DNA of 36,296 nucleotides from Candidatus Hydrogenedentota bacterium (GTDB lineage: Bacteria > Hydrogenedentota > Hydrogenedentia > Hydrogenedentales > CAITNO01). The position numbers and the translations under genes are program-made. The notes under the pieces are model-generated. The model was not told where the DNA came from. It saw only the letters and a list, made by a program, of their open reading frames with translations, and did not search any database. Shown piece by piece: positions 2,580-36,148 of this stretch (the first letter of the stretch is position 1; every line of letters starts with the position of its first letter). The DNA lies in contig JAAYJI010000297.1 in assembly GCA_012523015.1 (NCBI GenBank), positions 1 through 36,296 on the forward strand. Direction: 5' to 3'.

Positions 2580-3692
2580 TCAGTTCCGATTGATCAAGGC
2601 AAGGATTTCAGCCGCTGCCCGCGTAGATGCTCCCGGCGGCTGCAAACGTCGTTTTACTTCTTCCAAATCTTCTTCCATTCTGCGGCGTTTTTCACTGTCT
2701 TCCACCAAATCTTCCATGATCGGAAGAATCTTTTCCGGCACCGCCTCATGTTGAATCAGTTCCGGTACTGCTTCCCGTTCCAGTACGATATTGACAAGTC
2801 CAATAAAAGGAACCCGTACAAAGAGACGTGCAAGCCAGTAGCTCAGGGGATTGACTTTATAGACGATGCACATGGGTACGCCAAAAAGGGCGGTTTCCAG
2901 TGTGGCTGTGCCGGAGGCGACCAAGCAGCACCGGGATTGTGCGAGTACTTGGTGCATGCCCTTGATCACGATTTCGACGGGCAGCCCGGCCATAAGCAGC
3001 CGAAGTTCTGCCGCCCGTGCTTCATCAAGACAGGGGGTAACAAATTGCAGCTCGGGATATTTTTTGAGTAATGAAATGCCTGTTTGCGCCATGACCGGAG
3101 CAATGCGCCGGATTTCTTGGGCGCGGCTTCCCGGCAACAACCCAATTATAGGCGCTCCATTATTTTTTGTGTCGGAATGGACGGTTCGCGCTATTTCATC
3201 CAAAAGGGGATGCCCAACATACACACAATCCACGCCCTTATTGCGGTAAAGGTCTTCTTCAAAAGGGCAAATGACAAGCATACTGCTGTCAACACGTGCG
3301 AGGGTATCCAAACGTTTACGTTTCCATGCCCACACTTGCGGCCCTATATAGTAAATAACGGGGATGCCCAGGGCATGGACTGCTTTGGCAAAGCGCAAAT
3401 TAAAGCCGGGATAATCTATAAGCACAATACACCGGGGCCGTTCACGACGTACCCTTTCCAGCGTGTCGAGGAAAAGGCGGCGCAGAGGCAATGCCTTGCG
3501 TAATACCTCCACAAAGCCCATAACAGGATCTGCTGCAAGGTCATAATGCAGTTCCATGCCAGCCTGTTGCATTTGGACGCCGCCCAGGCCTGAGCAACGC
3601 AGTTCGGGATCGGCAGCGCGGAGTGCCCGTATCAGATGGGCTCCGTGCATATCACCGGAGGGTTCGCCCGCTATCAGAAAGATGTGTTTCAT
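2580..3692 (-). CDS. lpxB: lipid-A-disaccharide synthase LpxB
   Basis: LpxB condenses UDP-2,3-diacylglucosamine with lipid X to make the lipid A disaccharide at the cytoplasmic face of the inner membrane. The 370-residue product opens with MKHIFLIAGEPSGD, the glycosyltransferase family 19 N-terminus, and later has YYIGPQVWAW and LLPGSRAQEI, both typical LpxB segments around the UDP-sugar site. I place the start at the ATG at 3690-3692 rather than 33 nt upstream. This start forms an ATGA overlap with the stop of the preceding oxidoreductase gene, pointing to translational coupling. The gene shows that the host makes lipid A and so has an outer membrane. Confidence 0.96.
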   Translation of the reverse strand: MKHIFLIAGEPSGDMHGAHLIRALRAADPELRCSGLGGVQMQQAGMELHYDLAADPVMGFVEVLRKALPLRRLFLDTLERVRRERPRCIVLIDYPGFNLRFAKAVHALGIPVIYYIGPQVWAWKRKRLDTLARVDSSMLVICPFEEDLYRNKGVDCVYVGHPLLDEIARTVHSDTKNNGAPIIGLLPGSRAQEIRRIAPVMAQTGISLLKKYPELQFVTPCLDEARAAELRLLMAGLPVEIVIKGMHQVLAQSRCCLVASGTATLETALFGVPMCIVYKVNPLSYWLARLFVRVPFIGLVNIVLEREAVPELIQHEAVPEKILPIMEDLVEDSEKRRRMEEDLEEVKRRLQPPGASTRAAAEILALINRN

Positions 3693-4642
3693 GGACTGTT
3701 TCGGATTGCCTCCAGAATACGCCATGAAAGTTCCAGTGCATGCAATCCGTCGTCACCGGATACGTTTGGCGCGGCGTCGAATCGGACCGCGTCAATAAAG
3801 GCGGTCAACTCTAAGCGTAAAGGCTCTTCCTTGTGGACAGGTATGGGGGTCACGCTGATGTGCTGCATGAAATTGCCTTCTTTGGGCAGAGGCCCGGGTT
3901 TTTTACGGTAGACCAAGACTTGTTGGGCACTGTAATCGGTGGAGATGTACGCGTTGGGATCGAAGATCCTGATCTTGCGCATGGCTTCCATGGATACACG
4001 GCTGCTCGTCAGGTTGGCAACGCAGCCGGATGCAAAACGAAGCCGCGCATTGGCAATATCTTCTTGTTCTGAGAAAATAGGCACGCCTGAGGCATCGACC
4101 TGAACGGGCTCACTTTGAGTCAATTGCAGAATAATATCCAAATCATGGATCATGAGGTCGAGAACGACGCTCACATCGCTGCTGCGCCCTGAAAAGGGGC
4201 TGAGCCGATGACATTCGATAAAACTGGGTTTAATATCCGACTTGAAAAGGGCGAGTACAGCGCCGTTAAAACGCTCGACGTGGCCCACTTGTAGGATTAC
4301 ATGCTTCTCTTTAGCAGCAGTGGTCATGGCGCGTGCCTCGTCGGGCGTGGAGGCAATGGGCTTTTCCACCAATACATGGACGCCCTTAGAAATCGCTGCC
4401 AGAGCGACGTCTTTATGGGTATGGGTGGGGGTTGCCACCGATACGGCGTCCAAGTCTTGGTTCAGCAATTCCTCATAATCGGCATAGGCGGGCACAGCAA
4501 AGTCTTGTGCCACCCGTTGTCGCGCTGCAGCGCCGGTATCAGCAATTCCGACCAGTTCAAGATTGGGGATTGTCTTATACAAACGGGCGTGGTGGTAACC
4601 CAGGTGTCCGGTACCTATTACACCGATACGTAGTCGTTTCAT
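3689..4642 (-). CDS. Gfo/Idh/MocA NAD(P)-dependent oxidoreductase, candidate lipid A UDP-GlcNAc 3-dehydrogenase (GnnA-like)
   Basis: This is a cytoplasmic 317-residue Gfo/Idh/MocA protein without a signal peptide. It has the N-terminal Rossmann motif GVIGTGHLG (residues 7-15) and the family's catalytic-lysine motif EKP (93-95), followed by the alpha/beta substrate domain. It overlaps lpxB by ATGA and shares one promoter with it. In other Gram-negatives a Gfo/Idh gene among the lpx genes encodes GnnA, which oxidises UDP-GlcNAc at C3 so that GnnB can aminate it; lipid A then carries amide-linked acyl chains at that position. Genomic context makes this role likely here, but the partner aminotransferase gnnB is not next to it. 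The family is certain; the GnnA role is inferred. Confidence 0.9.
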   Translation of the reverse strand: MKRLRIGVIGTGHLGYHHARLYKTIPNLELVGIADTGAAARQRVAQDFAVPAYADYEELLNQDLDAVSVATPTHTHKDVALAAISKGVHVLVEKPIASTPDEARAMTTAAKEKHVILQVGHVERFNGAVLALFKSDIKPSFIECHRLSPFSGRSSDVSVVLDLMIHDLDIILQLTQSEPVQVDASGVPIFSEQEDIANARLRFASGCVANLTSSRVSMEAMRKIRIFDPNAYISTDYSAQQVLVYRKKPGPLPKEGNFMQHISVTPIPVHKEEPLRLELTAFIDAVRFDAAPNVSGDDGLHALELSWRILEAIRNSP

Positions 4643-7151: not shown

Positions 7152-8504
7152 ATGAATACACTAAATCGCAGGAAAGCCTTGCAATATTTGGGAGCGGGAC
7201 TTGTGGGCGCTATGGTGTCGGGCAAGAGCCTAGGGGCGGGCGCAGCGTCGGAACGGCCTCCCAATACTGTGCTTGTTTTTGCCGATGACTTAGGTTATGG
7301 TGATCTGAGCTGTTACGGCGCGCCGCAAATTTCCACGCCCAACCTGGACCGTATGGCGGAAGAAGGGCTGCGCTTCACGGATTTCTATTCTTGTGCATCC
7401 ATTTGTTCGCCGGCCCGGGCGGGATTGCTTACAGGACGTTATCCCATCCGTTTAGGCATCAATCGTGTCTTCTTCCCGCAAAGCGCTGATGGTTTGGATT
7501 CCACGGAAATCACCGTTGCCTCCTTACTTAAAAAGCAAGGCTATGCCACGGCGTGCATCGGGAAATGGCATCTTGGTCATTTACCTCAATACTTGCCGAC
7601 CCGGCACGGCTTTGATTATTATTTCGGATTGCCCTACAGCAATGATATGTCGGTTGAAGAGCGCGGGGATCCGCCGCTGCCCCTTATGCGCAATGAAGAG
7701 ATTGTCGAACAGCCTGCACGACAAGACACCCTAACCCGTCGCTATACGGAAGAAGCGATCCAATTTATCGACCACCATCAGGACGAGCCCTTTTTTGTCT
7801 ATCTTCCCCATTCCATGCCCCACGTGCCGCTCCATAGGTCGGAATCCTTTGTAGGCAAGTCGAAGGGAGGCTTATACGGGGACGTGATTGAAGAACTCGA
7901 TTGGAGCGTAGGCGAAATATTGAAGGCGCTGCAGGATCGAGGCTTGGACGAGAATACATTGGTCATATTTACCAGTGACAACGGCCCGTGGTTGTCGCAA
8001 GAAAGTGCAGGCGGGAGTGCCGCTCCGCTTCGTGAGGGGAAAGGCTCCGCTTTTGAAGGCGGATTTCGTGTCCCTTGTATTATGCGTTGGCGTGGGCACA
8101 TCGAGGCAGGCCGTGTAGAACGGTCTTTTTCCAGTACCCTTGATTTCTTGCCGACTTTTGTCGCGTTGGCTGGGGGGGCCGTACCCGATGACCGGCCCTT
8201 AGATGGTGAGAATATAGGTCCCATCCTTTTGGAAGGAAAAGACCGCGACCAGGAAGAATTCCATTATTTCGTTTTGGAAGAATACCATGCCCTGCGTTTG
8301 GGACAATGGAAATTAAAGCGTCCCTTCAACGGAAAAATCTACGGTAAGCCCGTAGCCCATCCGACCCTGCTCTTTGATCTTAATGCCGATCCTGAAGAGC
8401 AACATAACCTTGCAGGGTCGGAAAAAGAGCGGGTCCGCGCAATGGAAGCGCATATGGATAAATTTTGGGCTTCCTTGCAGCCCTTAGTAAAAGCTAAACG
8501 ATAA
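7152..8504 (+). CDS. exported type I (S1) sulfatase
   Basis: This 450-residue enzyme hydrolyses sulfate esters, most likely on carbohydrates, outside the cytoplasm. The N-terminus NRRKALQYLGAG has the twin arginines (R6, R7) and hydrophobic core of a Tat signal. The mature part opens with the metal-binding pair D45-D46 in FADDLGYGD. The formylglycine motif CSPARAGLLTG has the cysteine to be modified at C85, which would need an anaerobic or aerobic sulfatase-maturing enzyme; none is encoded here. GKWHLGH (K138, H140), H220/H224 and SDNG (D276, N277) complete the usual active site. A good AAGGAG ribosome site precedes the ATG. Only 9 nt separate its stop from the next sulfatase start, so the two are probably one operon. 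The substrate cannot be told from the sequence. Confidence 0.93.
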   Translation: MNTLNRRKALQYLGAGLVGAMVSGKSLGAGAASERPPNTVLVFADDLGYGDLSCYGAPQISTPNLDRMAEEGLRFTDFYSCASICSPARAGLLTGRYPIRLGINRVFFPQSADGLDSTEITVASLLKKQGYATACIGKWHLGHLPQYLPTRHGFDYYFGLPYSNDMSVEERGDPPLPLMRNEEIVEQPARQDTLTRRYTEEAIQFIDHHQDEPFFVYLPHSMPHVPLHRSESFVGKSKGGLYGDVIEELDWSVGEILKALQDRGLDENTLVIFTSDNGPWLSQESAGGSAAPLREGKGSAFEGGFRVPCIMRWRGHIEAGRVERSFSSTLDFLPTFVALAGGAVPDDRPLDGENIGPILLEGKDRDQEEFHYFVLEEYHALRLGQWKLKRPFNGKIYGKPVAHPTLLFDLNADPEEQHNLAGSEKERVRAMEAHMDKFWASLQPLVKAKR

Positions 8505-8513
8505 GGCAGCAAA

Positions 8514-10049
8514 ATGAAAGGCAGAGCTTTTATGAAGAACACGATAACACGGCGTCAATGGCTGGGCGTAACAGGCGGTGCCCTAGCTGCCGCATCCCTC
8601 CAGTTCAATGCAAGAGCAGGGGAGATGAAGCGGCCCAATATCCTGATGATCATGGGCGATCAGCACCGAGGCGATTGTTTGGGCGCTGACGGCAATGATG
8701 CCATCCTTACGCCTAATCTCGACCGTATCGCTCGTGAAGGGGCACGCTTCAAACACGCGTATAGCTGTGTGCCCTCTTGTACGCCTGCCCGAGCCGCCTT
8801 GCTCACAGGCTTGGGCCCGTGGCGCAACGGGATGCTCGGTTTCGGTCGGGTAGCCGAAAAGTACGACAAGGAAAAGCCGCAAATGCTGCGTGACGGCGGC
8901 TATCAAAGCTGTGCGATTGGGAAGTGCCATTTTCATCCGCAGCGCAACGGTCACGGTTACCACCAAATGATCTTGGATGAATCCGGACGGGTTGTTGATC
9001 CTGAGTTTAAAAGTGATTATCGGGCTTGGTTTGAAACTATGGCGCCCAATCTTGATCCAGACGCTACCGGTGTCGGGTGGAATGACTATTGCGGAAAAGC
9101 GTATGTGTTACCGGAAGAATTGCATCCTACCCGCTGGACAGGTGATGTAGCGGTTAATTATCTCAAGGGCTATGATCAGGAGCCGCCTTTTTTTCTGAAA
9201 GTATCTTTTTCCCGGCCTCACAGCCCGTATGACGCGCCGCAGCGTTTCTTTAATTTGTATCAAGACCGCGCCATCCCCGAACGGTTCATTGGAGATTGGT
9301 GTCAAGACTATGAGGAGCGAAACGGTCCGAAAGACAGCATATGGCATGGTGATATGGGCGCTGAAACGACACGCCATTCGCGCTGCGGCTATTACGGCAA
9401 TGTGAGTTTTATTGATGAACAAATTGGGCGTATATTCAATGCCTTGGAAGAGAAAAATATACTGGAAGAAACCTTGATCCTCTATATAGCCGATCACGGC
9501 GACATGCTGGGCGATCATCATCACTGGCGGAAAACCTACGCCTATGAAGGCTCCGCCCGGGTGCCTTTCCTCATGCGCTGGCCGGAAAAGATGATGCAAG
9601 CCCCCCGTGGTCAAGTACGCGACGAGGTGGTTGAACTCCGCGATGTATTGCCCACCTTTTTAGATGCAGCAGGTCTTGGCGGTGCGGAAGACATGGACGG
9701 GAAGAGCGTATTGCCCCTGCTGACAGGCGATTCCGAGGGTTGGCGCGATGCGATCGATCTGGAACATGACCTTTGTTATGACGACAGAAATCATTGGAGC
9801 GGAATGACTGACGGCAAAACCAAGTATATTTTTAACGCCTTTGACGGGTCCGAGATGCTCTTTGATCTAGTTGAGGACCCCGGCGAATGTGTCAATCTCG
9901 CTGTACAAGCACAGCATGCCGCTACCCTTGTGCAGTGGCGCGAAAAGCTGGTAGCCCATCTCAAAGAACGAGGCAGAGCGTGGGTAAAAGAGGGACAGCT
10001 CTGTTTGAGGCGCAAGTCTATCTTGTACTCACCAAACCATCCCGGCTAA
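8514..10049 (+). CDS. exported type I (S1) sulfatase, second of a pair
   Basis: This is a second S1 sulfatase of 511 residues, clearly different in sequence from its neighbour. A Tat-like N-terminus (TRRQWLGVTGGALAAA) precedes the catalytic domain. The metal site begins with GDQHRGD (D49-Q50), the formylglycine motif is CTPARAALLTG (C89), GKCHFHP (K137, H139) follows, and later IADHGDMLGDHHHWRK gives the Asp-His metal ligands. The ADHGDMLGDH form is seen in several alkaline-phosphatase-fold hydrolases acting on sulfate or phosphonate monoesters, so a phosphonate-type substrate cannot be excluded. An alternative ATG at 8532 gives a shorter n-region and has AAAGG upstream; either start is possible. 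It probably shares the transcript of the preceding sulfatase. Confidence 0.92.
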   Translation: MKGRAFMKNTITRRQWLGVTGGALAAASLQFNARAGEMKRPNILMIMGDQHRGDCLGADGNDAILTPNLDRIAREGARFKHAYSCVPSCTPARAALLTGLGPWRNGMLGFGRVAEKYDKEKPQMLRDGGYQSCAIGKCHFHPQRNGHGYHQMILDESGRVVDPEFKSDYRAWFETMAPNLDPDATGVGWNDYCGKAYVLPEELHPTRWTGDVAVNYLKGYDQEPPFFLKVSFSRPHSPYDAPQRFFNLYQDRAIPERFIGDWCQDYEERNGPKDSIWHGDMGAETTRHSRCGYYGNVSFIDEQIGRIFNALEEKNILEETLILYIADHGDMLGDHHHWRKTYAYEGSARVPFLMRWPEKMMQAPRGQVRDEVVELRDVLPTFLDAAGLGGAEDMDGKSVLPLLTGDSEGWRDAIDLEHDLCYDDRNHWSGMTDGKTKYIFNAFDGSEMLFDLVEDPGECVNLAVQAQHAATLVQWREKLVAHLKERGRAWVKEGQLCLRRKSILYSPNHPG

Positions 10050-18734: not shown

Positions 18735-19050
18735 CTGTATATCGCCCCCCGCATGCGCATCCGCATCCAAACTGCTTATAGTGCCAATATATGACTCAAA
18801 ATGACCCCGAAAGCCGGTAGTTGATGAGCAATCTAATGAGCAGAGATTTGAGCCATTTGATGAGCCATGCTGAAGCCCCCTATCCTCCGGGTCGGATACC
18901 GCTGCTTTCGCATCCGCATCTCTCCATACCGGGGAATCTGCGCGCCCCTGCGTGCCTTTGTATTTAATTATGTTAAGATTTTGGAATGGTCGTTACCGGT
19001 ATTTTGAACACTTCTTAATCTGTGGCTCAATCAAAGGCGAGGATCTTTCT
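18735..19050. other. spacer downstream of tRNA-Thr with short direct repeats
   Basis: No supported gene is present. A 12-mer CGCATCCGCATC occurs twice (18756-18767 and 18909-18920), and a TGATGAGC-like unit occurs three times between them (about 18823-18865). The 3' sequence of the tRNA is not repeated elsewhere in the window, so no attachment-site pair is visible. The last 100 nt lead into the rhamnosidase gene. Confidence 0.5.
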
Positions 19051-22000
19051 ATGAAGCCTGCGTTAGTACAAGGCGCGGCGGCGCTGTTGTTTTTGGTGGC
19101 GGTGATGGGCGGTGGCGTATGTCCTGTGGTCTGGGGTGCGGACGATCTTTTTGATCGTTTTAGTGAAATGTCCAGCGACAGCAGACCTCATACACGATGG
19201 TGGTGGATGGGGAATGCCTTGCGCAAAGAAGATATAAGGTGGCAGTTGGATCAAATGCGTGAACAGGGCATAGGCGGCGTGGAACAAATCACCATGGATC
19301 CTGTGTATACACGGGGAAATCATGCCTATCTGTCGCCGGAATATTTTGAGCTCCTCCGTTTTGCCGTTGCGGAGGCAGCGAAACGGGATCTATCATTTTC
19401 AATCAATTTTGGCGGGCCCGGCTGGATTTGGGGCGGTGATTGGGTTCCGAAAGAAGATCAGAGTCAGGTGATGCTTGCCAGTTTTTTGGATGTGGAAGGG
19501 CCTCACTATGTTGATGAGACTTTGCCCAAAGAAGCTTTTATGAATCCCGCCGACATGGAACGCTCCATGGCCTTTATTGATGATGAAGATCAGTTGTGTG
19601 AGGTTGTGGCTGCCCGCATATCGGAAGGCAAGTTGGCGGCCGACAGCTTGACGCTCTTGTCACCTTTCGTGAAAGAGGGCTTGCTGCAATGGCAGGTGCC
19701 TGAGGGGAAGTGGCGTATTATGGCCTTTTGGCTGAGCCGCCGAGACAACAGCCTGGCGGTGAATCATCTGAACCGGGAAGCGATGGAGCGCTATTGCGAA
19801 AGACTGGGTGCTCAGTACAGTGCCGCTCTCGGCGATTATATGGGTACCACCGTAGAATCCTTTTTCGGTGATAGTTTCGAGGTGCCTATTTACCGCAACG
19901 GTCTGTATTGGAGTGCCGACTTTTTGGATCGTTTCGAAAAAGAAATGGGATATGCACTTACTCTTTGGCTGCCTGCGCTGTGGTGGGAGGTAGATGATTT
20001 ATCCTCCAAAATTCGATACGATGTCAACGCTTTTTTGCACAAACGAGGGTTGGATGCTTTCTTCGGCGTATTTTTGGATTGGTGTTCGCGCCATGGCGTA
20101 GGCGGGCGCATTCAGCCCTATGGCTTTGTCACCGACACGATTGAGGGTGCCGGTAAAGCATATATACCCGAAATGGAAATTACGCCGGGAGAAAAGGACG
20201 CTGTACCTTGGTATGATCCCCGCATCGGTCCTCGTGCCTACGTGACATCGGGGGCGCATCTATATGGTCGAAATATTGTGAGTGCTGAGGCATTTACCTA
20301 TCTGCATTGGCAGCCTTACCGTGCGACTTTGGAAGAACTTAAAATTGCAACGGACGGATTTCTCTGTGCCGGCGCGAACAAGATTTATAACCACGGCTTT
20401 ATTGCATCACCGGAACGCCATATCGTTCCGACACGGGGGTTCTTTTCGGCGATCCGCATCAGCCCCGAAAATATTTGGTGGCGTCATTATCATTACTTGT
20501 CCTCTTACACCGCCCGCTGCTGTGCCGCACTGCGTTATGGTCAGCCTGTCGTGGATATTGCGGTCTATTCACCTTTGGCGAATCAATGGACAAAGAGCGT
20601 GTTAAACGCGCGTAAATGGACCCGTGAATTTGATTTCGGTGAGTTGGGGCATCTGCTCTCTGTTAATGGCTATGCCTTCGATTTGGTCAATGACGAGGTG
20701 TTGCAGCGCGCGGATTTAGATGACGGTAAGCTCCGTTTAGGGGAGATGGAATACGAGTTGTTGATTCTGCCCGCTATTGAATCTCTACCCGTTGAAAGCA
20801 TGCTGCAACTTAAAACCTATATAGTTGGGGGCGGAACGGTTGTCGCACTGGAACGAGTTCCGGAATTCTCTACGGGATTCCACGAATATGCTGCGCGGGA
20901 TGAAGAAGTGCGCCAATTGAGTGCAGAACTCTTCACTATGCCTGCGGGGGCGAAGCAGGCCGGAGAAAAGCACTGCGGCAAAGGCAGAAGTTTTTGTCTC
21001 CGTCAAGTGCTGGATCGACAAGATCCTTTGGATTGGCATTTGGCTCCCTTTGACCCATTTTTGAAGACGTTGCGTGAAATCACCGTACCGGATTTGGAAA
21101 GTGAACGAACTCCAGCCGGTCGGGGAAACAAGGAAGGACTTGCCTTTGTCCATCGTCGTTCTGCGGACAGGGATATTTATTTCGTAACCAATCTGCAATA
21201 TACACCGAGCATTGCACCCTTGGGCTTCCGTCAGGCGCAGGGATGTCCATTTCGGTGGGATCCCCACACAGGAACGGGTCATGCCCTTGCTGCCTATAGG
21301 CGGGAGGGAAGCTATACAGAACTGCCGCTTTCATTAGCGCCTTTCGAGTCCGCTCTGATTGTATTTGAACATTCTAATGATGGCGCTGCGAAAAATCCCC
21401 ATGTGCTAAGGAGCGACTTTGCCGAGATTCTTGATGCCGGTGTGCAAGGCTTCACGGCGCTTGCCGACCATAACGGTATTCATCACTACCACTTTCATGA
21501 TGGCAGCGCCGTCGTTAAGGGTACGTCTCAGGTTGAGGGATTGCCTGCAGACTTCGAGATCAGCGGCACGTGGACCCTTAAGTTTCCGAGCACGGAAACT
21601 TTTCTCACAGAGCGGCACTGGTCGGTGCTGCGGTCTTGGACAAAAGAATCTGACTTACGTCATTTCAGCGGAACGGCACATTATTCTATTAATTTCGAAC
21701 TTCCCGAATGTTACAGCGCGCCTGATATACGGTTAAGGTTGTCTGCGGGCGCGGTGGGGAATATAGCCGTTCTCTCGATGAACGGCCGCCCCGTGGGTGT
21801 GCACTGGATGAATGGACAGGAATTTGAATTGGAGGGAATTATCGGGTCGGGAGAAAACACGCTCCATCTTGAGGTGACCAATACGCTGATCAATCGCGTG
21901 GCGGGAATGGAGACTTTCCCGGATGTGCCCGAAGCCTTGCGCCCGATCTTTGGTGAAACTGCTGTTTCTTCGGAGCACGCCACAGCGGTATTGACCGGAT

Positions 22001-22086
22001 TTGAGCCTTTGCCGCTTTCGGGCTTGTTGGGCCCGGTACGCATTAAAGCCTTGCGCGAAGTGACCGTAGCCCCTGCGAATTTATGA
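19051..22086 (+). CDS. exported GH106-type alpha-L-rhamnosidase-like glycoside hydrolase
   Basis: This large exported protein of 1011 residues starts with a Sec-type signal peptide (MKPALVQGAAALLFLVAVMG, cut near WGA). The mature N-terminus PHTRWWWMGNALRKEDI...QLDQMREQGIGGVE and the segments LSPEYFELLRFAVAEA and NFGGPGWIWGG are characteristic of GH106, whose known members remove alpha-L-rhamnose from plant and algal polysaccharides. The C-terminal quarter contains a beta-sandwich of the kind seen at the end of these proteins (about FSGTAHYSINFELP to SGENTLHLEVTN) and a final SGLLGPVRI motif. The ATG at 19051 is preferred because GAGGA lies just upstream and the signal peptide follows at once; an earlier in-frame start would add 33 residues without a leader character. 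It is the first gene of the plus-strand accessory cluster. Confidence 0.88.
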   Translation: MKPALVQGAAALLFLVAVMGGGVCPVVWGADDLFDRFSEMSSDSRPHTRWWWMGNALRKEDIRWQLDQMREQGIGGVEQITMDPVYTRGNHAYLSPEYFELLRFAVAEAAKRDLSFSINFGGPGWIWGGDWVPKEDQSQVMLASFLDVEGPHYVDETLPKEAFMNPADMERSMAFIDDEDQLCEVVAARISEGKLAADSLTLLSPFVKEGLLQWQVPEGKWRIMAFWLSRRDNSLAVNHLNREAMERYCERLGAQYSAALGDYMGTTVESFFGDSFEVPIYRNGLYWSADFLDRFEKEMGYALTLWLPALWWEVDDLSSKIRYDVNAFLHKRGLDAFFGVFLDWCSRHGVGGRIQPYGFVTDTIEGAGKAYIPEMEITPGEKDAVPWYDPRIGPRAYVTSGAHLYGRNIVSAEAFTYLHWQPYRATLEELKIATDGFLCAGANKIYNHGFIASPERHIVPTRGFFSAIRISPENIWWRHYHYLSSYTARCCAALRYGQPVVDIAVYSPLANQWTKSVLNARKWTREFDFGELGHLLSVNGYAFDLVNDEVLQRADLDDGKLRLGEMEYELLILPAIESLPVESMLQLKTYIVGGGTVVALERVPEFSTGFHEYAARDEEVRQLSAELFTMPAGAKQAGEKHCGKGRSFCLRQVLDRQDPLDWHLAPFDPFLKTLREITVPDLESERTPAGRGNKEGLAFVHRRSADRDIYFVTNLQYTPSIAPLGFRQAQGCPFRWDPHTGTGHALAAYRREGSYTELPLSLAPFESALIVFEHSNDGAAKNPHVLRSDFAEILDAGVQGFTALADHNGIHHYHFHDGSAVVKGTSQVEGLPADFEISGTWTLKFPSTETFLTERHWSVLRSWTKESDLRHFSGTAHYSINFELPECYSAPDIRLRLSAGAVGNIAVLSMNGRPVGVHWMNGQEFELEGIIGSGENTLHLEVTNTLINRVAGMETFPDVPEALRPIFGETAVSSEHATAVLTGFEPLPLSGLLGPVRIKALREVTVAPANL

Positions 22087-22276
22087 GAAAGGGATTGATT
22101 TCAGAGACGGGAGTGTGTTCTACGTCGCCTTGTCCGCCCTATGGCGTTGCATCGCCGCTGACTCATGTTGCATTTAATTTGCATGGATAAAAGGAATTAG
22201 TCTTTAATAGAGTTGTTGTTGGTTGTATGGCTATCGTCCCGCAAGTATGGATCTGTCTCATAAGGAGTATGTTGAA

Positions 22277-23509
22277 ATGGAACAAAATTCTAAGAGTAGC
22301 TGTGAGCGTCGAAGCTTTTTGAAGACGGCGGCATTGACCGCTGCCGGTCTTTCCATATTGCCGTCCCGAGCAGTCTTTGGATTTGATGCCAATAGTAAGA
22401 TTGAATTGGGCATTGTTGGCTGCGGCGGGCGGGGCAATTGGATTGGACGCCTCTTCGAGAAACACGGCAATGCGAAAGTCGTCGCTGTCCATGATTATTT
22501 TAAAGATCGCTGCGATGAGGCACAACAAATCTTTAGTCTTGATGAGGGGCGCTGTCATAGCCAATTAGACGGCTACGAGGCTTTGGTGGCGGGATCGCTG
22601 GATGCCGTGGCCGTGGAAAGTCCGCCCTATTTTCATCCGGACCAATCGGTGGCGGCCTTGGACGCCGGCAAACATTTGTATTTGGCGAAACCCATTGCGG
22701 TCGATGTGCCGGGCTGTCAGGCGATTGTGGATGCGGCACAACGCAACAAGAGTAAACTCTCGGCCTGGGTTGATTTCCAGACCCGTGCAAACGATTCTTT
22801 CATCGGCGCCGCTGAGCGTATCCATGAGGGTTTTATCGGAAAGCCTGTATCCGGTCAATTCTATTATTATTGCGAACGGCTCCACCAGAAAACCCCCGCT
22901 CGCAATGAAACCGCCCGCCTGCGCAACTGGTCTTTCGATATAGCGCTGTCCGGCGATATTATTGTGGAGCAGAATATCCACGTCATAGACGTGGCCAACT
23001 GGTATCTGCAGGGGCATCCGCTGAAGGCACGTGGTGTGGGCGGGCGCAAGGCGCGCATCGATATCGGGGATTGTTGGGATCATTTCATCGTCACCTACAC
23101 CTATGCCGATGAGGTGTTGGTAGACTTTAGTTCGGGACAATTTACCTATGGCTACGGCGATTTATGTATGCGTCTTTACGGCTCGGAAGGTACCGTCGAT
23201 TCTCATTACGGCGGCGATGTCGTTCTGCGCGGCAAAAATAAATCCTGGGAAGGCGAAAAGACCAATACCATTTATGAATCCGGTGCCGTGACGAATATCA
23301 TCAAATTCTGCGACAGTATCCGCAACAGCACGCCCATTGATAATACGGAAGAATCTGCGCACAGCACGATGACCGCCATCCTCGGCCGAATGGCGGCGTA
23401 TACGGGCGAAGAAGTGACGTGGGAGCAGATGGCCGCTTCAACAGAGCAGCTGGATCCGAAGTTGGATCTTCCCGCCGACGGACATTTGGAAGCCCTCGTC
23501 CGCGGCTGA
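22277..23509 (+). CDS. Tat-exported Gfo/Idh/MocA oxidoreductase
   Basis: This 410-residue oxidoreductase has a Tat leader (CERRSFLKTAALTAAG, R11-R12). The NAD(P)-binding motif GIVGCGGRGNW (45-55) and the family motif AKPIAVD (137-143, catalytic-type lysine K138 kept, preceding Glu changed to Ala) follow, with ENIHVIDVANW and similar segments in the substrate domain. Tat export means the cofactor is loaded before crossing the membrane, as shown for glucose-fructose oxidoreductase. The ATG at 22277 is chosen because AAGGAG lies 9 nt upstream. It follows the rhamnosidase and precedes an exported TIM-barrel gene by 90 nt. The likely job is redox chemistry on a sugar or glycoside in the periplasm; the substrate is unknown. 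Confidence 0.92.
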   Translation: MEQNSKSSCERRSFLKTAALTAAGLSILPSRAVFGFDANSKIELGIVGCGGRGNWIGRLFEKHGNAKVVAVHDYFKDRCDEAQQIFSLDEGRCHSQLDGYEALVAGSLDAVAVESPPYFHPDQSVAALDAGKHLYLAKPIAVDVPGCQAIVDAAQRNKSKLSAWVDFQTRANDSFIGAAERIHEGFIGKPVSGQFYYYCERLHQKTPARNETARLRNWSFDIALSGDIIVEQNIHVIDVANWYLQGHPLKARGVGGRKARIDIGDCWDHFIVTYTYADEVLVDFSSGQFTYGYGDLCMRLYGSEGTVDSHYGGDVVLRGKNKSWEGEKTNTIYESGAVTNIIKFCDSIRNSTPIDNTEESAHSTMTAILGRMAAYTGEEVTWEQMAASTEQLDPKLDLPADGHLEALVRG

Positions 23510-23599
23510 TGTCAGGCCCGTGATGGATATGGCAGGCGCACTTGTGTTTAAATCAAAAGTATATAGAAACAATCATCGTTATCAAGGAGGATTCGTTCA

Positions 23600-24493
23600 A
23601 TGACAAGTACACGACGTGAATTTATGAAAGCGGGCGCTTTTGGAGCTGCCGGTCTTTTGTGGGCGTCTCAGCTCCGTGCAGAAGCAGGCTTGGATATTAA
23701 AATCGGCGCTTGCGACTGGTCTTTTCAGGAGACCTGCAAGCCGGAAGGCTTGGCAGTGGCTAAGGCATTGGGTATGGATGGATTGGAAATATCCTCTACC
23801 GACGAGGCGGGGGAAGTGTTGAAGATTGCCGATCCCGCGTTTCAGGCCGCCTATAAAGACGCCATGGCAGAAACAGGGACGACGGTTCCTTCTATTGCAT
23901 TGGGATTAATGAATGAATATCCCTTGGCAAGCGATGAACGGGGGCCTGCATGGCTGGAGCAGACCATTGGCGGGGCTAAAGAGCTGGGCTCAAAAGTCAT
24001 CTTGGTTGCTTTCTTCGGCAAAGGCGATCTGTTGCAGCGCAAAAGCCTCTTAGGCGGCAGCGGTAATCTGAAAGAGGATGAGGTGGAAGTGGTTGTTGAA
24101 CGGTTAAAAGTGGCCGCCAAGTTGGCAGCTGATGCGGGCGTGATTCTCGGATTAGAAAATACCTTGTCGGCGACACAAAACCTGAGCATCCTCGAAAAAG
24201 TACAAAGCGATGCGGTACAGGTCTATTATGATGTGGGCAATTCCACGAGCGGCGGCTATGACATTGCCGAAGAAATACGCAGGCTCGATGAACGTATCTG
24301 TCAGATCCATTTTAAGGATGGCGGCAGTTTCTTGGGAGAAGGCAGGGTCGACATGGACGCTGTTGAAAAGGCGATGAAAGATATCCGATACGAAGGTTGG
24401 GTCGTATTGGAGACGGCTATTCGTCAAAACGACCGCGACGGGAGTTTTCAGAAGAACATCGATTTTGTCAAGAACATGTTTGCGTTAGGATGA
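23600..24493 (+). CDS. Tat-exported AP-endonuclease-2-like TIM-barrel isomerase/lyase
   Basis: This 297-residue protein has a Tat leader (STRREFMKAGAFGAAGLL, R5-R6) and a xylose-isomerase-like TIM barrel. The metal-site residues appear in order: LGLENTLSA (Glu), VYYDVGNSTS (Asp), CQIHFKDGG (His, Asp) and WVVLETA (Glu). A strong AAGGAGG ribosome site precedes the ATG. It follows an exported Gfo/Idh oxidoreductase and is 10 nt from the MerR-type regulator gene, so all three are probably cotranscribed. Related barrels act as isomerases or epimerases, or, when paired with Gfo/Idh enzymes, as lyases of oxidised glycosides. Which chemistry applies here is open. Confidence 0.9.
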   Translation: MTSTRREFMKAGAFGAAGLLWASQLRAEAGLDIKIGACDWSFQETCKPEGLAVAKALGMDGLEISSTDEAGEVLKIADPAFQAAYKDAMAETGTTVPSIALGLMNEYPLASDERGPAWLEQTIGGAKELGSKVILVAFFGKGDLLQRKSLLGGSGNLKEDEVEVVVERLKVAAKLAADAGVILGLENTLSATQNLSILEKVQSDAVQVYYDVGNSTSGGYDIAEEIRRLDERICQIHFKDGGSFLGEGRVDMDAVEKAMKDIRYEGWVVLETAIRQNDRDGSFQKNIDFVKNMFALG

Positions 24494-24503
24494 TCGCAGC
24501 ACT

Positions 24504-24860
24504 ATGGTTGCGGGTGAAAAAACGAACAAACTTCTCTCCATTTCTGAAGTGAGTGAATTGACCCATGTGAAAGTTCACACACTCCGCCAATGGGAAGACC
24601 GCTTTCCGCAGTTGAATCCGAGGCGGCTGCCTTCAGGCAATCGCGCCTATACGGAGCATGACATCAAAATTGTCCGCCGCATCAAAAGCATGTTGCATCA
24701 TGACGGCATGACCACGAAGGGCGCGCGTATCAAGCTCGCCCAGGAGTTGCGGGAAATCAGTAAGCCCAAAGACTTCCATGAAATGCGTAATCTTGCCGAC
24801 CAAATCGCTGAAGAAGCACGGGCCATTCTTGACTTGCTGGATGAGACCGGCATCCCCTAA
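24504..24860 (+). CDS. MerR-family DNA-binding regulator
   Basis: A 118-residue protein with a MerR-type winged helix-turn-helix: LLSISEVSELTHVKVHTLRQWEDRFPQL (residues about 10-37) then a wing with NPRRLPSGNRAYTEHDI and the helix VRRIKSMLHHDGMTTKGARIKL. The closing helix (about 80-115) is short and could form a dimer coil. There are no cysteines for metal sensing and no effector domain. The sequence is close to the small MerR proteins often found beside pheT/ihfA, which makes its place inside a sugar-enzyme cluster unusual. It starts 10 nt after the TIM-barrel gene and is the only local candidate regulator of the 22277-26272 genes. Ligand unknown. Confidence 0.86.
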   Translation: MVAGEKTNKLLSISEVSELTHVKVHTLRQWEDRFPQLNPRRLPSGNRAYTEHDIKIVRRIKSMLHHDGMTTKGARIKLAQELREISKPKDFHEMRNLADQIAEEARAILDLLDETGIP

Positions 24861-25057
24861 GCCTCGTAGTGCGTGGTCCGGGTGCTGTTATATAATGAAG
24901 TCTGAAAAACAGCCTGTTCCCGGCTTCGCGAGGATTGCCTGTGCTTGTCAGAAAGGGGCTGCAATAACGGACTTTCATGGTTGTTGTTCAATCGTGTCGG
25001 AGATATCACGTTGACCGAAATTTATAAATAGAATGGAAACGAGAAAGGACTCTATCA

Positions 25058-26272
25058 ATGACTATTTCGGATAAAGGAAATGGATTTTCTCGGCGCTCTT
25101 TTTTGTGGGCGTCTGTAGCAGCGGCAGGGACTGTAGGGCTCCATGTCAAAGGGCATGGTCAAAATCCTGAGATTTCCGGATTTGAAAAGACGGAAAGTAC
25201 CCTCCAAGAGGGAGCAGTATGGACGCCGAAATCGGATCGTAAAATTCGTATGGGTATTGTCGGCTATGGCGTTTGTCGTTTCGGCGCTGCCTTCTATTTA
25301 CAGGATCATCCCAATGTGGAGATCGTCGCTGTGAGCGATTTGCTGCCCGACCGCTGCGCTGCACTGGCAAAAGCCTGCCGTTGCGAAAAGACCTATCCCT
25401 CTTTGGAAGAAATGTTAAAGGATGACACCATCGAGGCCGTGTTTATTGCCACGGACGCGCCGTCTCATGCGTGGCACTGCATCGACACCCTGCGCCACGG
25501 CAAGCATGTGGCGTGTGCCGTTCCTGCCGTGTTTGGTTCGTTGGAAGAAGCGGATCAGCTTTTGGAAACGGTAAAAGAAACGGGCTTGACCTATATGATG
25601 TTTGAGACCTCCGCCTATCACGACGAAGCCTATGCCATGCGTGAATTGTATAAGGCGGGGAAGTTGGGTCCCATGGTCTATACGGAAGGGGAATATTTCC
25701 ATTATATGGATACGCCCATTGATTCATTCCGCGGCTGGCGCATTGGTCTGCCGCCCCAATGGTATCCCACCCATTCCAATGGCTACTACACGTGCGTGAC
25801 CGGCGGCAGCTTCACCGAAGTTTCGTGTATGGCGTACCCCTCTGAGATGCCTGATTTCCAGCCGAACAATAATCGATACCAAAATCCCTTTTCCACTGAG
25901 ATTGCTTTATTCAGAACGAGCGAAGGCGGGATGGCGCGCATGGCGGTCAGTTGGGAGACGCCGGGATACCAAGGCGAGATGGGACGTGTCCGCGGTACCA
26001 AGGGCAGCGTGACCGGTGTTCAGTATGAGGGAATCGAAGACATTTCCGGTATTGAGTTGAACAAGCCGCCCCTGCCGCCCACGGTCAAAGCGGGGGGTCA
26101 TGGCGGATCTCATGGGTATTTAGGCGATGAATTCGTGAATGCCATACTCGAAGAGCGCTTGCCCCTGGTCGACATCATTACTGCATTAAATACGACCGTA
26201 TCCGGCGTGGTTGCGCATCAAAGCGCGCTCCAGGGCGGTGCCTTGTTAAAGATCCCCCAATATTCGTGGTAA
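25058..26272 (+). CDS. Tat-exported Gfo/Idh/MocA-like protein lacking the EKP lysine
   Basis: This 404-residue protein carries a Tat leader (FSRRSFLWASVAAAG, R12-R13), a long linker, then a Rossmann motif GIVGYGVCRFG (66-76). Where most family members have EKP, it has A154-V155-P156 (VACAVPAVFG), so the lysine that usually helps catalysis is missing while the proline is kept. The substrate domain is intact, ending in a GGHGGSHGYLGDEF segment common in exported members from planctomycete-like bacteria. It may bind a sugar and NAD without normal dehydrogenase activity, or use another residue. GAGAAAGG precedes the ATG. A perfect TATAAT at 24891-24896 lies in the gap upstream but has no clear -35, so it may be cotranscribed with the MerR gene. 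Confidence 0.9.
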   Translation: MTISDKGNGFSRRSFLWASVAAAGTVGLHVKGHGQNPEISGFEKTESTLQEGAVWTPKSDRKIRMGIVGYGVCRFGAAFYLQDHPNVEIVAVSDLLPDRCAALAKACRCEKTYPSLEEMLKDDTIEAVFIATDAPSHAWHCIDTLRHGKHVACAVPAVFGSLEEADQLLETVKETGLTYMMFETSAYHDEAYAMRELYKAGKLGPMVYTEGEYFHYMDTPIDSFRGWRIGLPPQWYPTHSNGYYTCVTGGSFTEVSCMAYPSEMPDFQPNNNRYQNPFSTEIALFRTSEGGMARMAVSWETPGYQGEMGRVRGTKGSVTGVQYEGIEDISGIELNKPPLPPTVKAGGHGGSHGYLGDEFVNAILEERLPLVDIITALNTTVSGVVAHQSALQGGALLKIPQYSW

Positions 26273-31713: not shown

Positions 31714-31821
31714 AATTCTCGTGTCGCGCTTTTAGGACTGCGCAAGATGACTTATCCATGCGATAGGTTTTGAACTGTTTTGCTTTCAAAAAGCTTAAGA
31801 AAGAATAAGGAGAATAAGACG

Positions 31822-33150
31822 ATGTTTGATCCCATGGATGCCCCATCTGGAAAAGAAACGAACCGTCGCAGTTTTTTAAAAGCGACCACCTTAAGTGCCG
31901 CTGCCGGTATAGGCATGGCACAGGCGAACCGGGCTTTTGCCGATACGGAAAAGCTTGCGATTAACGGCGGCAAAGCTGCCATCCCCAAACCCGACACCGA
32001 CGCGTGGCGCTGGCCCCGCTATACGGAAGCCGACGAAGAGGCGGTGGTGAAAATGCTGCGCGCCCCCGACTACAGCGCTATCCCTGCACTGGAAGCGGAA
32101 TGGTGTGAGCATGTCGGCGTTCCCTATGCGCGGAATTATTGCAATGGCACGAGCGCGCTGCTATCTCTCTTTTTCGCGTTGAATCTGCCGCCGGGCAGCG
32201 AAATCATGGTGCCCAGCTACACGTTCTTCGCGACCATTGTGCCCATGCGCCTCTTTGGTTTGGTTCCTGTCTTTGTGGATATCAATCCGAGAACCTTGAA
32301 CTTCGACTTGGAAGATGCGAAAAAACGGCTGACGCCGAACACGAAAGCGGTGATGCCCGTTCACTGGATCGGTCTGCCTTGCGACATGGACGCAATCAGC
32401 GATTGGGCCCAAGAAAAAGGCTTGATCCTTTTGGAAGATGCGGCTCATGCCCAGTATGCCAAACTGAAAGGTGTGCATGCCGGTGCTTGGGGCGAAATGG
32501 CGATTTTCAGCTACCAGATGAGCAAGCCTTTGCCGGGTATTGAAGGCGGCATGGGCGTCTATAAAACAAAGGAATACCGAGATCGTGCGACCCTTTTGGG
32601 GCATTATGATGCGCCAGGTGTTGATGACGACAGCCCCTACAAACAATATACCGGCACGGGACTGGGCACAAAGACACGCATGCACCCGGTTGCTGCCGAG
32701 CTGATTCGTGTGCAAATGAAAGATTTGAAAGAGCGCACAATCAAGGGAGTGGCTCAAACGCGTAAACTCAATGATGTGTTGTTGCAATTGCCCGGCTTGT
32801 ATGAGCAATCAAGCGGCAGAGATGATGTGCAGCGCTTGTACTATGAGTGGAATATGCTTTTCATTGATGAGCAAGAAGCCGGCGTTTCCCGGGAAAAGGT
32901 TGTTGCTGCGTTACGGGCGGAAGGCGTGCGCGCCGACGCTTTGAGTTATCGTTTGCAGCATCATCAGCCCCTCTATAAACAAGCGGAGTGGTGGCACCAT
33001 CTCCCCGTTATTCCCGATCTGCCCGGCTCTGAACAAGCCAATGCGACCAGCATCGCACTGCCCTACTTCACGAAAGAATGTCCTGAGATGGTGGAGGGCT
33101 ATATTCGCGCTTTTGAAAAAGTTTGGGCCCATCGCGACGAACTCGCCTAA
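31822..33150 (+). CDS. Tat-exported DegT/DnrJ/EryC1/StrS-family PLP enzyme
   Basis: This 442-residue product combines a Tat leader (TNRRSFLKATTLSAAAGIGMA, R15-R16) with a full DegT-family aminotransferase domain. PLP-site residues are present: CNGTSAL (107-113), the Asp of LLEDAAHA (D206) with H209, and FSYQMSKPLPGIEGG with K235 at the Schiff-base position. The family normally works in the cytoplasm on nucleotide-linked keto-sugars, so export is unexpected; Tat would allow PLP to be bound before transport. The ATG at 31822 has AAGGAG nearby, and an earlier in-frame start at 31780 lacks one. A promoter at 31685-31713 serves it. The genes after it encode a TIM-barrel lipoprotein and a symporter. 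An aminated or dehydrated sugar in the periplasm is possible, but no substrate can be named. Confidence 0.9.
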   Translation: MFDPMDAPSGKETNRRSFLKATTLSAAAGIGMAQANRAFADTEKLAINGGKAAIPKPDTDAWRWPRYTEADEEAVVKMLRAPDYSAIPALEAEWCEHVGVPYARNYCNGTSALLSLFFALNLPPGSEIMVPSYTFFATIVPMRLFGLVPVFVDINPRTLNFDLEDAKKRLTPNTKAVMPVHWIGLPCDMDAISDWAQEKGLILLEDAAHAQYAKLKGVHAGAWGEMAIFSYQMSKPLPGIEGGMGVYKTKEYRDRATLLGHYDAPGVDDDSPYKQYTGTGLGTKTRMHPVAAELIRVQMKDLKERTIKGVAQTRKLNDVLLQLPGLYEQSSGRDDVQRLYYEWNMLFIDEQEAGVSREKVVAALRAEGVRADALSYRLQHHQPLYKQAEWWHHLPVIPDLPGSEQANATSIALPYFTKECPEMVEGYIRAFEKVWAHRDELA

Positions 33151-33393: not shown

Positions 33394-34290
33394 ATGGTAG
33401 GTGTGAAGAGTGTTTCTTTGTGTGTGACGGGGTTGGCGTTGGCTGCTCTTATTTTTTGTGGCTGCAGCAGTCCCGTCAATCAAAGCGAGCCTGCAGAAGA
33501 GGCGGCGGCAGCAGCGCCTGCGCCGACACCGTGGCGGCTTGCTTGTCGTGTCGCCAACTATGGTGCTTTTCAAGAGGACGCGTTCAAATACATCCAAGAA
33601 CTGGGACTGCACTATGTCTTTATGAGCATTCCCAAAGCGGAAGAAGTGGAAGCGGTGAAAGAGCAATTGGCTGCCTTCGGGCTGGAGGTGCTCGTGGTTC
33701 GCGGCGATACGAATCTGTCTCAAGAAAGTGCTGTTGCGGAGCTTGGCGCACAGTTCGAGATCTGCAAGCAATTGGGCGTGAAGTACATGTTCCTGTCGCC
33801 GAAACGCCATGATGCGCCTTTTGAAGTGGTCTATGAACGGCTCCGCGAGGCAGGCGATTTGGCCGAGGAAAACGACGTTATTCTCGTGCTGGAAACCCAT
33901 CCCGATTTGGGTACCAACGGCGCTGTCCATGTGGAAACGATGAACGCCATAGACCATTCCCATGTTCGTGTGAATTTTGATACGGGCAACATCAGCTATT
34001 ACAACGAAAATACCGATGCCCCTTCTGAATTGGAAAAATGCGTGGACTATGTAGCGACCTTCGAAGTGAAAGATCATAATGGCGCTTTGGAGACCTGGAA
34101 TTTCCCCGCTCTTGGAGAAGGGATCGTCGATTTCCCCGCCATTTTTAAAATTCTGCGCAGCCATGCCTATACAGGCCCCATCACGATTGAGGTGGAAGGG
34201 GTGGAAGGGGTCGAATGGACTTTGGATGATATCCAAGAGGCATTGAAAAAGTCCGTTGCCTATCTGCGTACTTTGGAGTCCTTTCAGTAG
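33394..34290 (+). CDS. AP-endonuclease-2-like TIM-barrel lipoprotein
   Basis: This 298-residue protein has a hydrophobic leader ending in a lipobox-like FCGC, with C24 the likely lipidated cysteine (Phe at -3 is unusual), then an Ala/Pro/Glu-rich linker (about 25-46). The rest is a xylose-isomerase-like TIM barrel with metal-site segments VLETHPDLGTNG (Glu), VNFDTGNISYYN (Asp), TFEVKDHNG (Asp/His) and ITIEVEG (Glu). A clear AGAAAGGA ribosome site precedes the ATG. It is tethered to a membrane facing the periplasm, 37 nt upstream of the symporter gene, suggesting that it converts a substrate before uptake. A short 9-nt tandem repeat (EGVEGVE, near 34190-34215) lies near the end. Substrate unknown. 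Confidence 0.87.
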   Translation: MVGVKSVSLCVTGLALAALIFCGCSSPVNQSEPAEEAAAAAPAPTPWRLACRVANYGAFQEDAFKYIQELGLHYVFMSIPKAEEVEAVKEQLAAFGLEVLVVRGDTNLSQESAVAELGAQFEICKQLGVKYMFLSPKRHDAPFEVVYERLREAGDLAEENDVILVLETHPDLGTNGAVHVETMNAIDHSHVRVNFDTGNISYYNENTDAPSELEKCVDYVATFEVKDHNGALETWNFPALGEGIVDFPAIFKILRSHAYTGPITIEVEGVEGVEWTLDDIQEALKKSVAYLRTLESFQ

Positions 34291-34327: not shown

Positions 34328-36148
34328 ATGAATACACAGGTTATGTTGGGAGTACCCGACTATTTTATGATTGTCGGTTATTTCCTGCTCATGTTGGGCA
34401 TTGGTCTTTATTTCTATCGGTCCATGAAGGGGATCAAGGATTATTTCAGCGGCGGCAACAATATCCCGTGGTGGCTGAGCGGCGTCTCTTTCTACATGAG
34501 CAGCTTCAGTGTCATGGCTTTTGTCAGCTATCCCAGCCTGTGTTATCGCTACGGATTCGTAGGCATTACCTTGTTGTGGGTTTCCATTCCTGCCACGCTT
34601 TTCAGCGCGCTCTTCCTCGCCCATAAATGGCGGCGCGCCCGTATCGAAAGCCCCATCGAATATTTGGAAGAACGATACAACCCTGTATTACGGCAATTGT
34701 TTTCGTGGCAGGGTGTGCCGACCAAAATTATCGACGACGGCATCAAGCTTTTTGCCATCGGCATCTTCATTTCCGTGAGTCTCGGTTTCGATATGAAGTG
34801 GAGCATGATCGGCGCCGGCGGCATCATGCTGCTCTATACTTTCATGGGCGGTCTCTGGGCGGTGGCGGTGACCGACTTTATCCAATTCGTCGTGTTGACG
34901 GCAGCGATCATCATCATCTTACCCTTGTCCTTTTATCACGGCGGCGGCGTCACACAAGTGTTTAAGAATCTGCCGGATGGCTTCATGCGCCTAACCTGTC
35001 CCGAATATGGTTGGGGCTATGTGATCTATCTCATCGTGATGTATACCTTGGCGTGGAGCAGCGTCAATTGGTCGCTCATCCAGCGTTATTACTGCGTGCC
35101 CACCGAACGGGATGCTCTCAAGGTGGGTTTGTCCGTAGTGGTTTTGTATATCATCGGACCGCCCTTGATGTTTCTTCCCGCCATTGCCGGGACGCAGCTG
35201 ATCCCCGGACTTGCCGACGCAGGCACCATCTACCCGGAACTGTGCAGGATGCTCTTGCCTGCAGGCATGTTGGGGCTTATGATCTCCGCCATGTTCGCCG
35301 CCACTATGTCCATGCTCAGCAGCGACTATAATGTTTGTGCCAATGTGCTGACCCACGACATTTACCGGCGTCACTTGCGTCCGGACGCCTCGCAGCGCGA
35401 ATTGGTTCTTGTGGGACGGCTGATGACCCTGCTCATTGGCGTGTTAGCAATCGGCGCTGCCTTGTTGATGCTGAGCCTTGCCAAAGCGGAAGACATGTTC
35501 ACCATGATGGTTACGCTCTTTAGTGTGGCTACGGCTCCTGTCGCGGTACCCATGATTTTGGGGCTTCTATCTCGGCGTTTCACGGCACGGAGCGCCCTTT
35601 GGGGCTTCTTGGCAGGTCTCTTCGTGGGCATTGCTCTTTTTGCAGTGTCTCGGACCGGGCGACCGCTGGCGTTTTTCATGATTCAATGGAATCCGGAAAG
35701 CAGCACCCTCAGTCTCTTTAATCGCAGTGCGCCCCTCGAAATGGTTCTCTTTATTGCGACCAGCTTGGTGACCTTCATCATCATGTGCTTGATTACGCTT
35801 TTCTCACCCATGCATGGCGAAGAAGAGAAGCGGGTCAAGGGCTTTTTTACCCGTTTGGAAGAACCCATCGGCAGCCGACCCGAAGAACAAGCCGCAGCAG
35901 CCCAATCCAAAACCATTTCTCCCTTTCAAGTGGTGGGCATATCTTTGATCATTATTGCGTTAATGATGATAGCCGTATTGCCTTGGTCGGACTCGTGGTT
36001 AACAGCTGTGCTTAACGGCAGTATCAGCGCCTTTTTGATCTTGGTCGGCATTGCCATGGTTTGGATGGAACGGAAACGTATGCGCAGGTTCAAACCCGAA
36101 TTGGAACCCCTTCCTGAAAAAAGACTTCGGCAGGAGTTCTATAATTAA
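34328..36148 (+). CDS. sodium:solute symporter (SSS family)
   Basis: This 606-residue inner-membrane transporter has roughly 13-14 hydrophobic helices. The N-terminus (VPDYFMIVGYFLLMLGIGLYFYRSMKG then DYFSGGNNIPWWLSGVSFYMSSFS) is the SSS signature region, and the GGLWAVAVTDFIQFVVL segment matches the conserved helix near the sodium site. Members couple sodium entry to uptake of sugars, sugar acids or similar solutes. A hydrophilic loop (about 500-530) precedes the last two helices. It follows the TIM-barrel lipoprotein by 37 nt and is probably the uptake route for its product. The final codons lie on DNA that reads as IS30 transposase on the other strand, so the C-terminal tail has probably been replaced; all helices precede that point. 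Confidence 0.92.
   Translation: MNTQVMLGVPDYFMIVGYFLLMLGIGLYFYRSMKGIKDYFSGGNNIPWWLSGVSFYMSSFSVMAFVSYPSLCYRYGFVGITLLWVSIPATLFSALFLAHKWRRARIESPIEYLEERYNPVLRQLFSWQGVPTKIIDDGIKLFAIGIFISVSLGFDMKWSMIGAGGIMLLYTFMGGLWAVAVTDFIQFVVLTAAIIIILPLSFYHGGGVTQVFKNLPDGFMRLTCPEYGWGYVIYLIVMYTLAWSSVNWSLIQRYYCVPTERDALKVGLSVVVLYIIGPPLMFLPAIAGTQLIPGLADAGTIYPELCRMLLPAGMLGLMISAMFAATMSMLSSDYNVCANVLTHDIYRRHLRPDASQRELVLVGRLMTLLIGVLAIGAALLMLSLAKAEDMFTMMVTLFSVATAPVAVPMILGLLSRRFTARSALWGFLAGLFVGIALFAVSRTGRPLAFFMIQWNPESSTLSLFNRSAPLEMVLFIATSLVTFIIMCLITLFSPMHGEEEKRVKGFFTRLEEPIGSRPEEQAAAAQSKTISPFQVVGISLIIIALMMIAVLPWSDSWLTAVLNGSISAFLILVGIAMVWMERKRMRRFKPELEPLPEKRLRQEFYN

Follow-up and report, generated by a model that had tools for sequence, protein, structure and literature searches.

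The window, as we call the whole 36,296 nt stretch of Candidatus Hydrogenedentota DNA that was analysed, holds an open reading frame, bounded by an ATG and a stop codon, for a DegT/DnrJ/EryC1/StrS protein (DegT-A) with a predicted Tat leader at its N-terminus. The gene is followed, after gaps of 243 and 37 nt, by genes for an exported TIM barrel protein and a sodium:solute symporter (Table 1). DegT-A matches PF01041 (E 4e-65; 220.8 bits against a curated cut-off of 19.8), and no match to PF00266 was found even at an E-value limit of 10. The host genome is 3.70 Mb in size and 95.8% complete. Close relatives of DegT-A or of the TIM barrel were not found in a plasmid collection, and a scan for promoters and terminators gave signals that were not above chance.

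Table 1. Coordinates of the features discussed, in positions of the window.
Feature	Position	Strand	Basis
Shine-Dalgarno-like AAGGAG before the leader ATG	31807..31812	+	Sequence; equivalent site in 27/31 orthologues
DegT-A, DegT/DnrJ/EryC1/StrS PLP enzyme, 442 aa (ATG to end of stop codon)	31822..33150	+	PF01041, AlphaFold2, PDB fold match
Tat leader, residues 1-40, predicted cleavage between AFA and D	31822..31941	+	RRxF invariance; leaderless relatives begin at residues 42-44
Twin-arginine motif N-R-R-S-F-L-K, residues 14-20	31861..31881	+	Sequence, homologue comparison
K235, Schiff-base lysine (SYQMSKPLPGIEGG)	32524..32526	+	phmmer alignment with AHBA synthase lysine (FSFQNGKLMTAGEGG); invariant in 54
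Exported TIM barrel (PF01261, AP_endonuc_2/xylose isomerase-like), lipobox-like signal ...LIFCGC	33394..34290	+	Profile, reading, fold
SSS sodium:solute symporter, 606 aa, SiaT/SGLT-like	34328..36148	+	PF00474; PDB sequence match; conserved neighbour
Tat-leader Gfo/Idh proteins	22277-23509 and 25058-26272		

The leader and the active site of DegT-A

A sequence-only reading of this DNA had described a DegT protein with a Tat leader and a PLP site that includes K235, and this description is confirmed by the PF01041 match and by the invariance of both the RRxF motif and the lysine. The leader (MFDPMDAPSGKETNRRSFLKATTLSAAAGIGMAQANRAFA, followed by DTEKLAINGG) shows, by reading and by script, ETNRRSFLK, with the two arginines at residues 15-16 and the phenylalanine at residue 18, an uncharged and moderately hydrophobic h-region and AFA, after which DTEKLAINGG begins. 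R-R-x-F is kept exactly in all 59 members of orthogroup A and the paralogous groups B and D (58 counted by script and one, L032 with the leader TSRRGFLKTAG..., by reading). Mean pairwise identity among these 59 homologues is 1.00 at R15, R16 and F18, compared with 0.13 over residues 1-13, 0.34 over residues 21-41 and 0.63 over the mature part. The invariance of the motif amid so divergent a leader requires selection on the motif and excludes chance. With the dedicated Tat profiles, DegT-A scores 16.0 bits (E 0.012) for TIGR01409, under the curated cut-off of 16.7, and 17.4 bits for PF10518, under that of 22.7; at a lax E-value limit of 10, matches were found in 39/54 family members for TIGR01409 and in 37/54 for PF10518.

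The sequence-only reading had allowed for a true start after residue 40. This was not borne out, since a Shine-Dalgarno sequence lies upstream of the leader start in 27 of 31 orthologues and upstream of any internal start in only one of the 31, and a mis-called start is ruled out by this placement. In the AlphaFold2 model of DegT-A (pLDDT 92.4) confidence is 41-63 before about residue 41 and above 90 after it. The N-termini of leaderless homologues, both from the phylum and from elsewhere, align with residues 42-44 (MTEKLALLGG, MGEKLAINGG, MSQKLAVDGG), and the nearest leaderless relatives, which belong to other phyla, begin at the mature N-terminus. The host genome has a TatC (G000:C7:2138-2863, E 9e-59) and two TatA-type matches. 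Export of DegT-A by Tat is strongly indicated by these observations.

K235 is invariant in 54 aligned DegT proteins together with E205-D206, S230, G109, H181 and R286, and DegT-A thus has both the Schiff-base lysine and the PLP-binding aspartate of its family. The lysine and the motifs of the PLP site are intact in all members of groups A, B and D, so that no exported group is catalytically broken.

The gene neighbourhood and its distribution

In 25 of the 31 genomes compared, the neighbours of DegT-A include a TIM barrel (PF01261) and an SSS symporter, and this conserved set, found across Hydrogenedentota, is what is new here. The six exceptions are G017, without the TIM barrel, G018, in which the contig ends after the TIM barrel, and G019, G029, G030 and G035, without both partners nearby. 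One or two genes intervene in some genomes and the symporter is convergent in G005, and a single transcript is therefore not claimed for all genomes. Group D DegT genes also lie beside a TIM barrel, in 4/4 cases. At two of the group D loci (L065 and L074) the DegT gene stands between the TIM barrel and a putative beta-propeller protein with weak Kelch_6/DUF6923 matches.

An export signal was recognised by reading on the TIM partner in all intact copies. The signal is lipobox-like in the window and elsewhere Sec-like or of the Tat kind (L065, L073, L074, L125, L140), and hence it is the predicted location of the partner that is conserved and not its export route. Since the signals differ and the destination does not, the partner provides strong and independent evidence for a pathway outside the cytoplasm. 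E167, D196, H228 and E266 of the TIM barrel are invariant and are putative metal ligands, placed as in the superfamily. The structures nearest to the TIM barrel model are UlaE, the 2-hydroxy-3-keto-glucal hydratase AtHYD, D-psicose 3-epimerases and the 3-keto-glucoside 4-epimerase YcjR. The best PDB sequence match of the symporter is 5nv9, the sialic acid symporter SiaT, and the next is SGLT2.

Among 68 Hydrogenedentota genomes orthogroup A was found in 32 (62-82% identity), orthogroup B in 28 (about 50% identity) and group D in four. The three groups form one clade, with support of 97/99 in one tree and 100 in another, and its sisters, which come from other phyla (G122, G094, G297 and G299; support 94), lack a leader. 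The question whether leader-bearing DegT proteins form a single clade, which the earlier reading had posed, can thus be answered positively for A, B and D but not overall: at least two further Tat-leader lineages, the C group and L097, were found, and the C group is also present outside the phylum (G122, G210 and G211, in a sample of only about 225 outside genomes). A single origin of all leader-bearing DegT proteins is ruled out by the trees, which contain at least three separate groups. As the C group and L097 carry Tat leaders independently of A, B and D, export of DegT proteins has arisen no fewer than three times in the genomes sampled. Four changes are required by the tree, one of which is owed to a truncated fragment (L168).

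The C group, which reaches beyond the phylum, is represented by L161-L170 (G003, G009, G046, G047, G058, G063, G122, G210 and G211). In two genomes (L142 and L143) a C-group DegT gene has a Tat-leader Gfo/Idh gene within a few kb. On one contig from outside the phylum (G122:C143; L138, 3361-7641) a leaderless A-type DegT gene adjoins two tandem C-group Tat-leader DegT genes and an Nramp gene.

Proposed function and its alternatives

The reading that we favour, with modest confidence, is that DegT-A is a periplasmic PLP aminotransferase for a free keto/amino sugar or cyclitol that works with the exported TIM barrel and a sodium-driven importer. DegT-A would fold and bind PLP in the cytoplasm and would then, as is strongly indicated, be exported by Tat and lose its leader after AFA. 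Once in the periplasm it would exchange a keto for an amino group, or the reverse, on a sugar or cyclitol that is free and carries no nucleotide; it would do so as a PLP/PMP aminotransferase, whose second substrate is probably a small amino or oxo acid. The exported TIM barrel, to judge from its fold and metal site, may be metal-dependent and isomerise, epimerise or hydrate the keto-sugar partner, and the sodium symporter would import the product. The net direction is more likely to be catabolic scavenging than biosynthesis because it is an importer, and not an exporter, that is conserved.

The expectation that the substrate is not a nucleotide sugar gained support, and a nucleotide sugar must be regarded as unlikely. 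DegT-A falls below every NCBIfam equivalog cut-off and comes near none, including those of the nucleotide-sugar aminotransferases PseC, ArnB, DesI and WecE, with scores of 150 bits against a cut-off of 423.5 (PseC), 144.5 against 631, 137 against 650 and 100 against 435. The best PDB fold match of the AlphaFold2 model is Fic25 (8gyh-8gyj; TM 0.81-0.86), so that the closest match is not a nucleotide-sugar enzyme, although identity to Fic25 and to the second-best match, the Serratia DegT protein 8y96, is too low to fix a substrate (25-28%, TM 0.79-0.86 for the two). TlmJ, ArnB, DesI, AHBA synthase and inosose aminotransferases follow, and at 13-28% identity the fold neighbours in this analysis are too distant for substrate assignment. 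The leaderless sisters, furthermore, adjoin Gfo/Idh and carbohydrate genes and not nucleotide-sugar genes.

The source of a keto-sugar is left unspecified in the favoured reading, which is overlapped by a possible but distinctly less probable alternative in which exported Gfo/Idh enzymes make the keto-sugar and DegT-A aminates it, as a periplasmic analogue of NtdC-NtdA, the resulting amino sugar being either taken up or used at the cell surface. The earlier proposal that Gfo/Idh enzymes of the same region play this part is unsupported by synteny, the conserved partners being the TIM barrel and the symporter directly downstream. The Gfo/Idh genes of the window lie at least 5.5 kb upstream of DegT-A in a separate rhamnosidase locus, and neither they nor the exported TIM barrel at 23600-24493 nor the GH106 rhamnosidase recurs beside DegT-A in the genomes compared; they are ruled out as conserved partners by this comparison. 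In two of the leaderless sisters (G094 and G297), however, 10-20 nt separate the DegT gene from a Gfo/Idh gene upstream, and cupin and UxaC-like genes follow it. The host genome encodes 55 Gfo/Idh domains, with Tat leaders on 10 of the 22 proteins whose N-terminus could be resolved, and the TIM fold resembles YcjR. Given the adjacency in the sisters and the Tat leaders of the Gfo/Idh proteins, an exported Gfo/Idh enzyme could supply a keto-sugar. A more general scheme, in which free sugars are oxidised, transaminated, epimerised and imported by a pathway outside the cytoplasm, is put forward with similar reserve: Tat-exported Gfo/Idh enzymes would make keto-sugars, Tat-exported DegT enzymes with preloaded PLP would exchange keto and amino groups, the exported TIM barrel would rearrange the product and the sodium symporter would import it. 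Such a pathway would amount to an extracytoplasmic sugar metabolism based on aminotransferases, with more than one evolutionary origin.

Several other loci with related genes were observed. The region 18952-26272 of the window contains a GH106 alpha-L-rhamnosidase, a Tat-leader Gfo/Idh protein, a Tat-leader TIM barrel and a second Tat-leader Gfo/Idh protein, and looks like an exported rhamnoside/keto-sugar locus. A leaderless Gfo/Idh gene at 3689-4642 (minus strand) is probably a GnnA-like lipid A gene because it overlaps lpxB (2580-3692, minus strand) and matches UDP-GlcNAc 3-dehydrogenase (243.5 bits against a cut-off of 450); its DegT partner must lie elsewhere in the genome. A pair of neighbouring sulfatases lies at 7152-10049, and a Tat-like leader is present on the second. 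The leaderless DegT genes of one phylum whose genomes are mostly small (L155, L157 and L158) are clustered with genes for apparent ABC sugar transporters, Gfo/Idh proteins, TIM barrels and UroD-like proteins, which suggests that the catabolic role of this DegT branch is wider.

It is unlikely that DegT-A and DegT-B act jointly, whether by forming a hetero-oligomer or by carrying out two transaminations in succession. Both are present in 26 of the 68 genomes, with A only in six, B only in two and neither in 34 (Fisher p 6e-11, uncorrected for kinship), four genomes (G010, G014, G015 and G016) have them in one cluster in the order DegT-A, TIM barrel, symporter, DegT-B, and the 8y96 entry is described as a hetero-oligomeric aminotransferase. 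DegT-B is, however, mostly solitary and unlinked to DegT-A in most genomes, and the presence of all catalytic residues in both means that neither is an obvious inactive subunit.

Somewhat less likely still is an exported PLP enzyme that is not an aminotransferase and that would carry out elimination, dehydration or epimerisation of an aminated or keto sugar or acid, in the manner of PvdN. The lysine and the DegT motifs of DegT-A are of the aminotransferase type, whereas the DegT dehydratases ColD and E1 have histidine in place of the lysine, and it is an H220K mutant entry of E1 that appears among the fold matches. Such chemistry would spare the cell the conversion of PMP back to PLP in the periplasm and would agree with a nearest fold, Fic25, that is no nucleotide-sugar transaminase, and a Tat-exported PLP enzyme with non-transaminase chemistry is known in PvdN (PMC6206403). 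That the leader is vestigial or the start mis-called, leaving an ordinary cytoplasmic DegT enzyme, is highly improbable, for the sub-threshold Tat profile scores of DegT-A itself are opposed by the RRxF invariance in 59 proteins, the Shine-Dalgarno sequence before the leader and the exported partner.

If the favoured reading of a periplasmic aminotransferase is true, PLP-dependent sugar chemistry takes place in the periplasm, where it raises the question of PLP/PMP cycling. The exported DegT branch would also offer a testable function in a phylum with little-studied physiology, and dozens of genes are probably annotated misleadingly when they are called, as is usual, nucleotide-sugar aminotransferases.

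Comparison with known systems

Textbooks place DegT enzymes in the cytoplasm, where they serve amino-sugar biosynthesis, while exported PLP transaminases (PtaA and PvdN, the latter a class V aminotransferase) and exported Gfo/Idh enzymes are already known. A search of open-licence PMC papers found none on an exported DegT protein, on 8gyh/8y96 or on DegT proteins with Tat in Planctomycetes or Hydrogenedentes. The combination of an exported DegT protein, an exported TIM barrel and a sodium importer points to undescribed periplasmic sugar/amine chemistry.

The premise of the sequence-only reading that DegT enzymes act on nucleotide sugars is too narrow, exceptions being NtdA, which acts on 3-oxo-glucose-6-phosphate, a non-nucleotide keto-sugar (PMC6522883), AHBA synthase, inosose aminotransferases and Fic25. 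NtdA resembles DegT-A in its family and in the proposed use of a non-nucleotide keto-sugar, and its Gfo/Idh neighbour NtdC is mirrored in the leaderless sisters of DegT-A. It differs in being cytoplasmic and in having a phosphorylated substrate, and the exported DegT-A members are without Gfo/Idh linkage. Fic25 and 8y96 share the fold, the PLP lysine and the motifs of DegT-A but not its Tat leader or its exported partner. YcjR and AtHYD have the same TIM fold as the partner barrel, at about 18-19% identity; unlike them, the partner barrel carries an export signal and is paired with a DegT protein. The closest parallel for the proposed export of a folded PLP enzyme by Tat is found in PvdN and PtaA of Pseudomonas, which fold and bind PLP in the cytoplasm before leaving by Tat, PtaA being a true periplasmic transaminase that is exported with PLP already bound (PMC6206403). 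The leader of PvdN (DRRTFLKQAGILAAG...LRA; PMC6085387) closely resembles that of DegT-A, although PvdN and PtaA belong to another Pfam family and act on the pyoverdine side chain with no comparable set of sugar genes.
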